DNA from: Vreelandella andesensis
GTDB taxonomy: Bacteria > Pseudomonadota > Gammaproteobacteria > Pseudomonadales > Halomonadaceae
Assembly (NCBI RefSeq): GCF_003989795.1
Contig: NZ_RZHG01000008.1
Location: 1 to 64,000, forward strand
Direction of reading: 5' to 3'
DNA length: 64,000 nucleotides
The position numbers and the translations under genes are program-made. Below, piece by piece: positions 20-55,356 of the stretch (its first letter is position 1; each line of letters begins with the position of its first letter). The notes below the pieces were generated by a model. The model did no database searches. It was not told where the DNA came from and saw only the letters and a list, made by a program, of their open reading frames with translations.

Positions 20-1551
<1,532 letters not shown>

Positions 1552-1731
1552 TACAATCATTGTGATACTTACTTGCTAACCTAAGGACTGGCCGTAGGCA
1601 GCAAAAGCGCATCAATCTTGGCTCAAGGTTCAAACGAATTCATTTCAATTTACATTGTCATGACCGCTTGCCTTGATATTTGGTGATTTATCACCCTCAT
1701 CGGCAAGCGCCCACATGAATTACCTGATCAA

Positions 1732-41973: not shown

Positions 41974-43659
41974 ATGCATCCACCACGCGTTCAACTTCGT
42001 CCCCGCCGTCGTCCACCCCTGCGCCTGCTGCCGCTAGGTGGATGTGGTGAAATTGGAATGAATCTTACGCTGTATGGATACGACGATGAGTGGATCGCCG
42101 TCGACTGCGGCATGATGATTCGCCAAGATTTACCTAACTCCCCGCTGCAGGTGCCCAATACGGACACGTTAACAGCGCTAGGTATTACCCCCAAGGCAAT
42201 CTATATCACCCACGGCCATGAAGACCACATCGGCGCGGTGGCGTGGCTCTGGCCCAGGTGGGGTTGCCCTATTTATGCAACGCCGTTAGCAGCGGGATTA
42301 CTGCGCCATAAGTTTGCTGAGCACCAGCTTAGTAGCGCCGCAATAATCGTCGTGAAACCGGGCGATGCAATGGAGATAGGCCCTTTCACGCTGCGCTACC
42401 TTCAGGTCACCCACTCGATACCTGAAAGTTGCTCTATCTTAATGCAGGCAGGCGGCTATCGCGTACTGCACACAGGGGACTGGAAACTTGATCCTAATCC
42501 GTTAATTGGCTCGCCCATCAACGCTGCTCAATTTCGCGCTATTGCCCCCATTGATTTAGTCGTAGGCGACTCCACAAACGCCCCGATGCCCGGCCATTCG
42601 GGCAGCGAAGGAGACGTCGCAAAAGCACTCGCCTACACGTTAAAACAGTGCACTGGCCGCGTGGTTGTATCGTGTTTTGCCAGTAATCTTGCACGCGTTT
42701 TAGCGATTGGGTTTGCGGCCCAACAGTGTGGTCGACGCGTTAGCCTCATGGGTCGCTCAATGGAGCGCATGGTGAGTGTGGCGAAGGGTCTAGGGTATTT
42801 AGACGATTTTCCACCGCTAGTACCGCCCCACGATTTAGGCTACTTGCCACCAGAAGAAGTGGTGATTATTGCCACTGGCAGCCAAGGCGAACCACGTGCC
42901 GCCTTACAACGCTTAGCACAGCGCAGACATCCGTTTGTGGATCTGGAGCCAGGTGACAGCATTATTTTTTCTGCCAAAGCTATACCAGGTAACGAGCGCC
43001 CCATTGAACAGCTTAAAAAACGCTTAGCACAACTCGGCGTATCAATTTTCGACGAAATGAACCATCCAGAACTACATGCCACCGGTCATCCCGCTGAAGA
43101 TGAGCTAAGAAAGCTGTATCAATGGATTCGTCCAAAAACATTGCTGCCCGTGCACGGGGAGGCGCGCCACCAAGCGGCCCATCAGGAAATTGCCACAAGC
43201 CTCGATATTAACGCCCCACTCGCTCCAGTAAATGGCGACATGTTGATATTCGATAATCTAGGGCTGCGCTGTGAAGCCCGTTATCCCCAGCCGCCCTGTA
43301 TTGTCAATCAAAACAGCGTTGTGCCTCACCCAGGACTTGATACTGGCTCTCACTCAACGCGGCGCGGAAGTCTGTTCTTAGCGCTTCCCGTTACGGCTAC
43401 CGAAACAGGCTGGTGCCGCATTGGCCGCTTAATGCTAGATGCCGGTGGCACGAGCCCATTAGACGAAGACAGTTTCAGTGAATGGTTGGATGACCAACTA
43501 GAGGAAATAGCTGCAGAGACCTTGGCTGATTTGCGCCAAGCGCTACAACCAAGACTCATTCATTGGTTAGCCAACCATCTTCAACATATGCCAGACGTAC
43601 ATCTGCAAATAATGGCAACCGAAATGCCTTCCTCAGAAGCGATTGGCAGCGATTTTTAA
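41974..43659 (+). CDS. ribonuclease J-type metallo-beta-lactamase-fold hydrolase
   Basis: This 561-aa protein has the beta-CASP RNase J layout: LPLGGCGEIGMNL near the start, the metal-binding HGHEDHIG near 80-87, then further histidines (THSIPES, TGDWK, GDSTNAP) and the C-terminal HGEARH motif. RNase J is an endo/5'-exonuclease in many bacteria. In gammaproteobacteria that rely on RNase E, such proteins are less studied and their substrates are uncertain. The N-terminus is basic and proline-rich. The ribosome site is weak. It diverges from purU and converges on moaE. Confidence 0.82.
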   Translation: MHPPRVQLRPRRRPPLRLLPLGGCGEIGMNLTLYGYDDEWIAVDCGMMIRQDLPNSPLQVPNTDTLTALGITPKAIYITHGHEDHIGAVAWLWPRWGCPIYATPLAAGLLRHKFAEHQLSSAAIIVVKPGDAMEIGPFTLRYLQVTHSIPESCSILMQAGGYRVLHTGDWKLDPNPLIGSPINAAQFRAIAPIDLVVGDSTNAPMPGHSGSEGDVAKALAYTLKQCTGRVVVSCFASNLARVLAIGFAAQQCGRRVSLMGRSMERMVSVAKGLGYLDDFPPLVPPHDLGYLPPEEVVIIATGSQGEPRAALQRLAQRRHPFVDLEPGDSIIFSAKAIPGNERPIEQLKKRLAQLGVSIFDEMNHPELHATGHPAEDELRKLYQWIRPKTLLPVHGEARHQAAHQEIATSLDINAPLAPVNGDMLIFDNLGLRCEARYPQPPCIVNQNSVVPHPGLDTGSHSTRRGSLFLALPVTATETGWCRIGRLMLDAGGTSPLDEDSFSEWLDDQLEEIAAETLADLRQALQPRLIHWLANHLQHMPDVHLQIMATEMPSSEAIGSDF

Positions 43660-43679
43660 GCCATTAGCGGTCTTATTGC

Positions 43680-44156
43680 CTACCAACGTTCTGCAGCTTG
43701 CTGGTCAGTATGACGTTCTTTCACCCAGTAAGCGCCCTGACGGGAGTGCTCCTTCTTCCAAAATGGCGCCTGGGTTTTTAAAAAATCCATAATAAAGTCA
43801 CAGGCCTGAAAAGCATCGCGACGATGCGCACTGGCCACCAGAACGCGCACGATAGGATCTCCCGGCGTCAAATCACCAATGCGATGAATAATACGTACGG
43901 CTTGTAACGCCCACCGCTGACAAGCCTGCTCACCAATCTGCGTTAATGTCCGCTCGGTCATCCCAGGGTAGTGCTCAAGAGTAAGCCCGATGACGTCTGG
44001 GGTTTCATTAAAGTCACGCACAAACCCCGTAAAAGTGACAATAGCGCCGATATCCGTACGTTTGCGAAGCGTACTTTCATAGCCGTCATCCATTTTAAAC
44101 GGCTCTTCTTGAACCTTGACAGCAATGTCTAATTCAGTCTCCGTGATGTCAGTCAT
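43680..44156 (-). CDS. moaE: molybdopterin synthase catalytic subunit MoaE
   Basis: This 158-aa large subunit of molybdopterin synthase adds two sulfurs to precursor Z using thiocarboxylated MoaD. It has FTGFVRD, HRIGDLTPGD, SAHRRDAF and the catalytic Lys region APFWKKE. The start at 44156 follows the moaCD stop by only 4 bp, with GGGGG in the preceding coding sequence serving as ribosome site. It completes the transcript mobB-moaCD-moaE. Its partner MoaD is the fused domain just upstream. Confidence 0.94.
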   Translation of the reverse strand: MTDITETELDIAVKVQEEPFKMDDGYESTLRKRTDIGAIVTFTGFVRDFNETPDVIGLTLEHYPGMTERTLTQIGEQACQRWALQAVRIIHRIGDLTPGDPIVRVLVASAHRRDAFQACDFIMDFLKTQAPFWKKEHSRQGAYWVKERHTDQQAAERW

Positions 44157-44160
44157 CAAA

Positions 44161-44955
44161 TTAGCCCCCGGTTACTGGCGGAAAGAAAGCCACTTCATCC
44201 TCATCGGTAAGACGCGCATTATCGTTTGCCATCACTTGGTTAATGGCACACATCGTGCGCTGCTCAGACAGCACATTAAAGCGTGCATCCCTTGCGCTTA
44301 ATGCCGCTTTCAACCCAGCGACATCCCGGCTTGGCAGCTGATCAAGCTCAATAGAAAGATCGCTTTCTTCAACTCGTTCACGTAGTTCAGCAAGAAACTT
44401 AACTCGAACACAAGGGGATGCGCAGCGCTCACCTAAGCTAACTTCTCCAGTAACGCCACCGCCTGTCACAATCGGTTCAGGAACACCCCGTTGGTAATCG
44501 CCACGGACACCGCCCCTTTTACTGTCAAGCTGAACGGCTTCAATGCACATGTCTTTGTCGACCGCTTTACACATATCATAGAGCGTTAGACAAGCCACTG
44601 ACACAGCCGTCAAGGCTTCCATCTCCACCCCTGTGCGTCCGTTCAAACGGCACAGCGCAGAAACATGAACACAACTGTTAGCATGGTCAACATCAAAGTC
44701 AACGGAAACCTTTGAAAGCGCTAATGAATGGCACAAAGGGATCAGCTCATGCGTTCGCTTAGCCGCCTGAATACCAGCAATGCGAGCGGTCGCCAGCACA
44801 TCGCCTTTAGGTAACTCGCCATCACTGAGCAGTTGCAGCGTTTTAGGCTGCATAACGATACGTCCAGACGCTACCGCCTCGCGGCGGGTCTCTCGCTTAT
44901 CGCCGACATCAACCATGTTGGCTTCGCCGTGTGTATTGAGGTGAGTTAGCTGCAT
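44161..44955 (-). CDS. MoaC-MoaD fusion, molybdenum cofactor biosynthesis
   Basis: This 264-aa protein joins two normally separate enzymes. Residues 1 to about 157 are MoaC (cyclic pyranopterin monophosphate synthase), with the catalytic [11 protein letters not shown] segment (Asp127, Lys130) and KRGG. Residues about 182-264 are MoaD, a ubiquitin-like sulfur carrier, ending in the free PPVTGG tail that must be adenylated by MoeB and thiocarboxylated. A linker of about 24 residues rich in Gly and Val connects them. The C-terminal Gly-Gly is intact, so both activities are plausible. It sits between mobB and moaE. No separate moaD is seen in the window. Confidence 0.88.
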
Positions 44956-44989
44956 ATCGTTACCTTTTTAATCAAGCCACGGTGTTATA

Positions 44990-45023
44990 AAGCCGCTGAT
45001 TTATGGAAGCTGCTAATTTATAG
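44990..45023. repeat. 17-bp imperfect tandem duplication at the end of mobB
   Basis: AAGCCGCTGATTTATGG (44990-45006) and AAGCTGCTAATTTATAG (45007-45023) are 14 of 17 identical. The second copy includes the mobB stop codon. Confidence 0.7.
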
Positions 45024-45569
45024 AGCGGCAGCGCTAGGTTGAGCATTCATCCATTCGATTATCCAATCGGTGATCGCGTCAATATCATTAAGGTCAAGGC
45101 GCTTGACTTTCGGGGGAATTGACACGGGGGCCGAGCCACTTAACGCCACTGCTTGCACCCAATCGCCACTGACAATGGAATCATCTCCAATACCCGCACG
45201 GTACAGGACTAGCTTAGGAATTGGCCACGCTTTAAAGCCCTCAACAATGACTAGGTTTGGTGCCTGGATGGTCATCAGTGACAACAGGTAAGCCAAATCT
45301 GGCTCTTCTTGGTTCGGTGTTTCTTGCATCATGGCAAAACGCTCTCGAGATGCAATCAACATCGGTGCAGCGCCAGCTTGACGAAGTTTATAGCTATCTT
45401 TTCCTGGCTGATCGACATCAAAGCTGTGGTGGGCATGCTTTATTACCCCCACCTTCAGCCCCGCTTCACGCAAACGAGGCAAAAGTTGTGCTAACAGCGT
45501 CGTCTTACCGGTACCGCTCCACGCGGCAATGCCCAACACAGGAAACGGACTATCAATTGCCTCTTCCAT
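45018..45569 (-). CDS. mobB: molybdopterin-guanine dinucleotide biosynthesis protein MobB
   Basis: This 183-aa GTP-binding protein assists MobA in making the bis-MGD form of molybdenum cofactor. The Walker A is AAWSGTGKTTL, the same variant as in E. coli MobB, followed by IKHAHH and the GKDSYKLRQAGA motif. It begins the mobB-moaCD-moaE run, 62 bp upstream of the fusion gene. GGAG is 7 bp before the ATG. Confidence 0.93.
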   Translation of the reverse strand: MEEAIDSPFPVLGIAAWSGTGKTTLLAQLLPRLREAGLKVGVIKHAHHSFDVDQPGKDSYKLRQAGAAPMLIASRERFAMMQETPNQEEPDLAYLLSLMTIQAPNLVIVEGFKAWPIPKLVLYRAGIGDDSIVSGDWVQAVALSGSAPVSIPPKVKRLDLNDIDAITDWIIEWMNAQPSAAAL

Positions 45570-45604
45570 TAACGACTCCTAATGACGTACCGGTGATCAA
45601 GTCG

Positions 45605-46834
45605 CTACTCACCTTCTTTCTCAACAGGTAAGAGCCAGTTTAGCGCAATGCCGACTAACGCCGCTAAGCTCACGCCTTGGAGAGTAAACTGGCCGCCACC
45701 AAACTGCATTCCACCGATCCCAAACACTAAAATTAACGAGACAACCACAAGATTACGCGCCGCCGTTAATGACTGACCAGCACGCACCAGGGTATTCATA
45801 CCAATCACCGCAATTGACCCGAATAGCAGGGTCATAATCCCCCCCATGACAGGGCCTGGAATGGTTTGCAGTAGCGCACCTAGCTTCCCGACAAAAGCCA
45901 GTACAATTGCAATCACCGCAGCGATAACCATGTACATGGGGTTGAATGCCTTGGTCAACGTCACCGCCCCCGTTACTTCTGAATAAGTCGTATTGGGAGG
46001 GCCGCCAAACAGAGCTGCCGCCATTGTTGCCACCCCATCGCCTAGCAAAGTGCGATGAAGGCCTGGTTTCTCTAAATAGTTTTTGCGTGTCACTGAGCCT
46101 ATCGCCACCATGTCGCCGATATGCTCAACGGCGGGCGCAATCGCAACGGGAATCATGAATAAAATAGCCGCCCAGTGAAAGCTAGGCGCGGTAAAGCTGG
46201 GCACAGACAGCCAAGCAGCGTCACGCACAGCACTGAAATCGACAACGCCCATCACCAGCGCTAAGCCATACCCCACTGCAATGCCCCCCATGATTGGCAC
46301 CAGGCGTAAAATTCCACGCCCGAAAACGGCCAATATAAGCGTCACTAGCAAACTTGCCATAGAAAGAAAGATAGCTCGACCATACCCAATATTATCGCTT
46401 GTCTCTCCTGTTGCCATACTGACAGCTACTGGCGCCAACGCTAAACCAATCACCATAATCACTGGCCCAACCACGACAGGCGGTAACAGTCTGTGCAGCC
46501 ATGCAGTGCCTTTGAGACGCACTGCTTGTGAAATGGCAACATACACAACCCCTGCTGCCATTAAGCCACCAAGCGTAGCCGACACGCCAAAGCTTGCAAT
46601 TGAGCCTTGAATAGGTGCAATGAAGGCAAACGACGACGCCAAGAAAACCGGCACCGTCAATTTGGTAATTCCGTGGAACACCAGTGTACCAATACCTGCG
46701 GTAAACAGTGCGACACTGGGGTCTAGCCCAGTTAACAACGGAACCAATACCAGTGCACCAAAGGCTACAAATAGCATTTGTGCACCTGTCAGCAGCATTT
46801 TGGGCCACGACTCATGACTTGCTGAATGTCTCAT
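45605..46834 (-). CDS. uraA: uracil permease
   Basis: This 409-aa nucleobase-cation symporter 2 family protein has about twelve to fourteen hydrophobic segments. The substrate-site motifs include VEHIGDMVAIG and GGPPNTTYSE, as in UraA. It imports uracil with protons. It lies behind upp on the same strand, with an intrinsic terminator between them, so readthrough would set its level. A weak GGAAG precedes the ATG. Confidence 0.93.
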   Translation of the reverse strand: MRHSASHESWPKMLLTGAQMLFVAFGALVLVPLLTGLDPSVALFTAGIGTLVFHGITKLTVPVFLASSFAFIAPIQGSIASFGVSATLGGLMAAGVVYVAISQAVRLKGTAWLHRLLPPVVVGPVIMVIGLALAPVAVSMATGETSDNIGYGRAIFLSMASLLVTLILAVFGRGILRLVPIMGGIAVGYGLALVMGVVDFSAVRDAAWLSVPSFTAPSFHWAAILFMIPVAIAPAVEHIGDMVAIGSVTRKNYLEKPGLHRTLLGDGVATMAAALFGGPPNTTYSEVTGAVTLTKAFNPMYMVIAAVIAIVLAFVGKLGALLQTIPGPVMGGIMTLLFGSIAVIGMNTLVRAGQSLTAARNLVVVSLILVFGIGGMQFGGGQFTLQGVSLAALVGIALNWLLPVEKEGE

Positions 46835-55162: not shown

Positions 55163-55239
55163 TGGTAGGACCAGGCGGATTTGAACCGCCGACCTCCACG
55201 ATGTCAACGTGGCGCTCTAACCAACTGAGCTATGGTCCT
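55163..55239 (-). tRNA. tRNA-Val (GAC)
   Basis: This 77-nt tRNA has acceptor stem AGGACCA/TGGTCCT and an encoded CCA. The anticodon loop TTGACAT places GAC at 55203-55205. The T-arm GGTTCAAATC is intact. It is identical to the copy at 55280-55356. Confidence 0.97.
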
Positions 55240-55279
55240 AAATAGAAGTATATAAATAACTAGCTGCACACAAATGAGA

Positions 55280-55356
55280 TGGTAGGACCAGGCGGATTTG
55301 AACCGCCGACCTCCACGATGTCAACGTGGCGCTCTAACCAACTGAGCTATGGTCCT
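55280..55356 (-). tRNA. tRNA-Val (GAC), second copy
   Basis: It is identical over 77 nt to the neighbouring copy, 40 bp away on the same strand, so the two are probably one transcript processed into two tRNAs. The anticodon is GAC, reading GUC and GUU. Confidence 0.97.

Follow-up and report, generated by a model that had tools for sequence, protein, structure and literature searches.

In the window, a 64,000-nucleotide stretch of the Vreelandella andesensis genome, one gene appears to encode two proteins of the Moco pathway, MoaC and MoaD, which raises the questions of whether the fusion is genuine, whether the joined protein could work as one chain, and why it has been kept. A first-pass annotation had proposed a MoaC-MoaD fusion between mobB and moaE, and the ORF reading together with the Pfam search agreed with it: moaCD (44161 to 44955, minus strand) is a single unbroken ORF of 264 aa plus a TAA stop (44161 to 44163), with MoaC first and MoaD second. 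The annotation had given exact coordinates and left the strand unstated. The MoaC part spans residues 1 to 156 (44488 to 44955), the linker residues 157 to 182 (26 aa; 44410 to 44487), and the MoaD part residues 183 to 264 (44164 to 44409), all on the minus strand; the chain ends in [12 protein letters not shown] with a free C-terminal Gly-Gly. Upstream lies mobB (183 aa; 45018 to 45569, minus strand), whose stop is separated from the start of moaCD by 62 bp. Downstream, moaE (158 aa; 43680 to 44156, minus strand) begins with an ATG at 44156, 4 bp past the moaCD stop as the annotation had it, and has an alternative TTG start at 44159.

Both halves were recognized by their domain profiles, in line with the domain search that the annotation had suggested. 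Pfam MoaC scored 195.2 bits (cut-off, 27) over residues 14 to 149 and covered its whole profile (1 to 136 of 136), and TIGR00581 scored 210.9 bits (cut-off, 141.5). Pfam ThiS, the family that includes MoaD, scored 47 bits over residues 185 to 264 (cut-off, 22.5). The closest solved sequence relatives of residues 2 to 155 were MoaC chains such as 4pyd and 1ekr, and the best fold match of the MoaC part was 4pyd_C, MoaC in complex with cPMP. The MoaD part matched the beta-grasp fold of E. coli MoaD (1fm0_D; E value, 1.7e-7), and its final 12 residues were identical to those of solved E. coli MoaD in an alignment over the last 82 residues. The NCBIfam moaD equivalog, TIGR01682, gave 52.4 bits, under its cut-off of 66.15. 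Although this label is not reached, the fold, the tail, and the gene context suggest that the C-terminal half would work like MoaD. In the AlphaFold2 model, a monomer built from 62 sequences with a pTM of 0.56, residues ~21 to 150 and 181 to 260 scored mostly >90 and both chain ends scored low, and linker residues 160 to 176, with a pLDDT of <50, are predicted to be disordered.

The claim that the MoaC active site and the MoaD Gly-Gly are both intact was borne out by comparison across the 135 unique fusions that we collected. K50, C75, H76, E111, E113, D127, K130, and K146 of the MoaC part were invariant in all 135; we take K50, D127, and K130 to be the equivalents of the E. coli MoaC catalytic residues K51, D128, and K131, and PDB titles among the fold matches name K51A and D128A variants of MoaC. 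The terminal Gly-Gly was likewise present in 135 of 135, the last eight residues reading FFPPVTGG in 134 and FFPPVMGG in one. The pooled dN/dS of eight close sequences, the window's among them, was 0.027 for MoaC, 0.059 for the linker, and 0.036 for MoaD, ratios that are rough given the high synonymous distances; they indicate strong purifying selection on both domains and purifying selection on the linker as well.

That the junction is an artefact of sequencing or assembly can practically be dismissed. The set of relatives comprised 196 genomes, 183 with a match, and 121 of the genomes belonged to Halomonadaceae, the window genome included. MoaC and MoaD shared a single frame in 116 of the 117 MoaC-bearing Halomonadaceae genomes, our own included (112 taken from match rows and four, G087, G099, G110, and G117, which first showed as two matches, from locus reading), and the fusion is therefore genuine and no sequencing error. 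The sole exception was a genome of the window's genus that was 74% complete and 6% contaminated (G053, locus L073), in which mobB, moaC, moaD, and moaE were split or shortened, as expected from frameshift errors. Both domains lay in one frame at 148 of 159 loci, a count that includes the window locus and some repeat genomes; the other 11 were this fragmented locus and ten outside Halomonadaceae. The junction frameshift or sequencing error that the annotation had named as a refuting outcome was not found among the 159 loci. In 80 of 569 relatives, which were named assemblies and included complete chromosomes, all 80 loci were fused.

The survey of Halomonadaceae that the annotation had called for thus found the fusion in Vreelandella, Halomonas, Billgrantia, Bisbaumannia, Modicisalibacter, Chromohalobacter, Salinicola, Aidingimonas, Onishia, and Litchfieldella, among others. 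Four of the 121 family genomes had no MoaC match (G041, G098, G104, and G106); the last three are near-complete and had one ThiS-family hit only, an apparent loss of the pathway. A third ThiS-family match, besides the fusion and what is presumably thiS, occurred in G013, G037, G047, and G089. We also sampled the class (369 genomes, 273 with a match), the phylum (398, 329), and the order (390, 362), and among the bacteria sampled the annotation's view that moaC and moaD are mostly separate elsewhere held. An uninterrupted full-length fusion outside Halomonadaceae was seen only in one genus (g81) of another family (f37; 116 genomes, 109 with a match), among the matches listed, where a long-linker fusion can appear as two matches and further cases may have escaped notice; other families do have long open frames surrounding MoaC (e.g., in G350 and G318). 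Ten of the 11 g81 genomes had a match, and all 10 were uninterrupted, as was no other row of f37 among the matches listed. One g81 genome (G1275; 87% complete, 3% contaminated) carried two full fused copies, on contigs C11 and C63. Plasmid records matched in 66 cases; the best 25 of these consisted of 13 with separate moaC and moaD, 2 with moaD only, 1 with moaC only, and 9 without annotation under the match.

The fused gene is the only source of MoaC and MoaD that we found in the window genome. A profile search returned one MoaC match, the fusion, and two ThiS-family matches, the fusion and a second one that is thiS (TIGR01683, 75 bits; cut-off, 37.45), and did not find the full separate moaC/moaD set that the annotation had asked to be sought; the assembly consists of 34 contigs with a completeness of 99.99, and a gene could still lie in a gap. 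The ORF adjoining thiS is presumably thiG, and its NCBIfam matches included no thiG model. The single MoaE match lies beside moaCD; it aligned with solved E. coli MoaE over residues 13 to 158 and kept lysines at the positions aligned to K119 and K126, which we take to be the catalytic ones of the E. coli protein. There was one MoaA C-terminal domain, and there were three ThiF-family matches, one of them below the cut-off. Of these, the ORF on contig C23 resembles MoeB, with 308 bits for PRK05690 against a threshold of 266, and the same ORF scored 262.5 for TIGR02355, under the cut-off of 376.55; we take its neighbors to be an Lrp-type regulator and prmC. Five Molybdopterin-family matches are possible users of the cofactor, and presumably may include respiratory complex I besides molybdoenzymes. 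Judged from these matches, the Moco pathway looks complete.

We consider it likely that this gene makes a bifunctional chain that arose by the joining of adjacent genes, was kept, and should work uncut. Known MoaC structures are hexameric. From the sequence we infer that the MoaC half of the fusion would most likely form this usual hexamer and make cPMP (precursor Z) from the product of MoaA, and, because of the hexamer, six MoaD arms would be expected per particle, one on a flexible linker from each MoaC subunit. The C-terminal Gly-Gly would be adenylated by MoeB, converted to the thiocarboxylate, and inserted into MoaE, consistent with the need of MoaD for a free Gly-Gly for adenylation by MoeB, for sulfur uptake, and for entry into MoaE that is described in the accessible part of PMC5372717. 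The order MoaC-MoaD is observed, and with MoaD last in the chain and its Gly-Gly free, cleavage should be unnecessary. The fusion would also equalize the amounts of MoaC and MoaD and place both together. The hexamer, the uncut function, and the activity of the fusion are thus predictions.

How the fusion arose is suggested by the loci of its unfused relatives. Of 32 loci read in bacteria other than the fused groups, 25 have a MoaD ORF downstream of moaC or overlapping it, in the same orientation, and the loss of a single stop or a minor frameshift would therefore be enough to join the two; six of the remaining seven had no nearby MoaD match, and one had MoaD on the other strand. In the best MoaC plus MoaD tree (59 rows) the fused state changes twice. 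One clade of all fusions was not rejected by the data (p-AU, 0.424), nor was a clade of the Halomonadaceae fusions without g81 at the 0.05 level (p-AU, 0.071), and a single origin is therefore unproven. The MoaC tree groups g81 with two Halomonadaceae genera (99/96, bootstrap not fully settled), a placement that would fit gene transfer and shared descent alike. Probably the fusion arose in or near the ancestor of Halomonadaceae by the joining of adjacent moaC and moaD.

The same gene order would also serve another reading, that the adjacent genes lost a stop and the harmless join was kept with no catalytic gain, a neutral operon fusion to which we give somewhat less than an even chance. It agrees with the linker, whose length at the 148 fused loci lies anywhere between 19 and 84 aa and which contains a repeat expansion in L061 and L141, and with the existence of chains that join non-consecutive steps. 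MobB, a last-step protein of the Moco pathway, precedes MoaC-MoaD in one open frame at L066 (G111; ORF of 455 aa), L163 (G066), and L164 (G035; ORF of 463 aa), and L163 and L101 (Halomonas sp. S3-1-1) represent one genome with the triple fusion. These chains fall in two Halomonadaceae genera (L066 in one, L163 and L164 in the other); L059, from the same genus as L066, is not a triple fusion, and therefore the event most likely occurred at least twice. A further candidate, L195, was rejected, its best MobB match being a different ORF. What speaks against pure neutrality is that, bar the one fragmented locus, none of the 117 MoaC-bearing family genomes has reverted to separate genes, that the linker core is kept in most fusions (104 of 135), and that the linker dN/dS among close relatives is as low as given above.

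The annotation had offered a functional reason instead, the channelling of precursor Z by the tether. Such channelling is possible, because docking of MoaD on MoaE would keep the MoaC site nearby and could allow local transfer of precursor Z, and the intactness of both halves, the predicted disorder and probable flexibility of the linker, and the cytosolic complexes of later Moco enzymes in plants, for which channelling of fragile intermediates has been suggested in a 2022 review (PMC9370521, accessible part), are all compatible with it. The wide variation in linker length and the triple fusions, which tie non-consecutive steps, make channelling a less convincing reason for the fusion, and MoaD must also pair with MoeB for recharging (PMC5372717, in the part available). 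An operon fusion that was simply kept explains the linker variation and the triple fusions at least as well as a channel does, and we regard proximity channelling as rather doubtful.

The linker itself combines a spacer of variable length with a more regular segment immediately before MoaD, whose usual form is PIVTG(E/D)GxxGEVSLGxRC..SPC. In the window protein this segment, P161 to C182 (44410 to 44475, minus strand), opens PIVTGGG and reads [22 protein letters not shown]. Counted by the short core pattern [IVLM][VI]T[GASD] rather than as a whole, the segment was found within the linker in the 104 unique fusions mentioned above; the core was absent in 31 of 135, including Chromohalobacter and Salinicola rows and one locus of the window's genus (L034, G067). 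In L061 and L141 (Halomonas sp. EAR18) the linker has grown to 84 aa by PSAAQ/PNAVQ repeats ahead of the PIVTG segment. Within an equal-length subset (n = 64), the residues of the segment were conserved while its codons varied, and the constraint therefore acts at the protein level; an RNA-level cause was disfavored on the same ground. The pN/pS of the segment in this set was 0.385, against 0.175 for MoaC and 0.274 for MoaD, and the segment is therefore less constrained than the domains.

Two functions could be imagined for this segment, and we think neither probable. It could serve as a protease site in a linker predicted to be disordered, by which the chain would be cut into free MoaC and MoaD in the manner of MoaX; MoaX (PMC4326299) and a Deinococcus MoaD-MoaE fusion (PMC8832034) are both cut, according to the accessible parts of these papers. 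Cleavage of moaCD seems unlikely, with the Gly-Gly end already free, no evident need for a cut, and the segment core missing in the 31 fusions. Alternatively, PIVTGEGxxGEVSLGxRC...PC might act in docking: together with the six MoaD arms of a MoaC hexamer it would bring MoaE, and perhaps also MoeB, into a single particle that builds Moco. This idea is speculative, with a low chance of being right; if true, the docking segment and the hexamer would make a bacterial scaffold for the first two Moco steps.

Free MoaD could in principle also come from a start codon inside the linker. In some linkers (e.g., in L119, L039, and L044) an in-frame GTG or TTG is preceded by a strong Shine-Dalgarno-like stretch, the mean energy of the best internal site (-4.30) is near that of the gene's own start (-4.61), and -6 was reached by 47 of 135 internal sites versus 30 of 135 own starts. 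However, synonymous-codon shuffles gave a mean best energy of -4.54, and the internal sites thus show no excess; p was ≤0.05 in only 3 of 135 fusions, and none was scored in the window linker. With internal sites no stronger than synonymous shuffles, we rejected this source of MoaD, which appears very improbable. The uncut bifunctional chain remains our preferred reading.

The surroundings of the operon varied among relatives. The gap between mobB and moaCD was <150 bp in 83 of 162 loci, with the four triple-fusion loci counted in, and 600 to 1600 bp in 77 (e.g., L037, L042, and L069; repeat genomes included), and an extra gene may sit in these longer gaps. In the window, a Moco riboswitch at the operon was not among the three Rfam hits at the gathering threshold, and a scan of 43500 to 45800 gave one promoter and one terminator, fewer than the shuffle means of 2.0 and 2.7. 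An RNase J-like beta-CASP protein, well below the NCBIfam RNase J cut-offs, is encoded at 41974 to 43659, convergent with moaE. A full-length 16S rRNA gene (20 to 1552, minus strand) stands at the window start, and two tRNA genes (55166 to 55356, minus strand) lie far from it.

If the preferred reading is right, this family of culturable, salt-loving bacteria contains a natural, probably uncut tether between the maker of precursor Z and the sulfurating carrier, which would give a simple means of asking whether intermediates of Moco synthesis pass locally. It would also suggest a rule: fusions in which MoaD comes last can do without cleavage. For annotation, a search by single gene names could miss moaD in the fused genomes, because there is no separate moaD gene there, and public protein databases may well hold such chains already.

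Compared with known systems, the fusion has in common with E. coli MoaC and MoaD their sequence, fold, catalytic positions, and last 12 MoaD residues; the E. coli proteins are separate, whereas here they form one chain with a 26-aa linker. No description of a MoaC-MoaD fusion was found in the literature covered, which included accessible parts of PMC1779556, PMC11237513, and PMC6147048 and left full text in subscription journals mostly outside; the fusions named there are MoaD-MoaE, MoaD-MoeB, MoaC-MoaB, MoaC-MoaE, and MoaC-MoaC (PMC1779556 and PMC11237513, as far as available). MoaX of Mycobacterium tuberculosis and other MoaD-MoaE fusions likewise include the sulfur carrier MoaD (PMC4326299, PMC1779556, and PMC11237513, in their accessible parts), but their MoaD is N-terminal and its partner is MoaE, whereas here MoaD is C-terminal and its partner is MoaC. 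MoaX, with its N-terminal MoaD, requires cleavage after Gly82 (PMC4326299, same part), and the layout of the window operon differs, moaE being a separate ORF. Fusions of MoaC with another Moco-pathway domain are known from NCBIfam (MoaC/MoaB, MoaC/MOSC, and MoaC/MobA) and from Archaea (MoaC-MoaC, MoaC-MoaE, and MoaC-MoaB; PMC11237513, accessible part); here the second domain is MoaD. The fused protein scored below the NCBIfam cut-offs for MoaC/MoaB (194 versus 285 bits), MoaC/MOSC (183.6 versus 457), and MoaC/MobA (123.7 versus 606), and its NCBIfam matches included no MoaC/MoaD model. Gephyrin and Cnx1, which are MogA-MoeA fusions, resemble it as Moco-pathway fusions for which channelling has been suggested (PMC9370521, accessible part), but their enzymes and steps differ from those of MoaC-MoaD. 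Set beside these, the MoaC-MoaD fusion is a modest new variation on known Moco gene fusions and not a new system.
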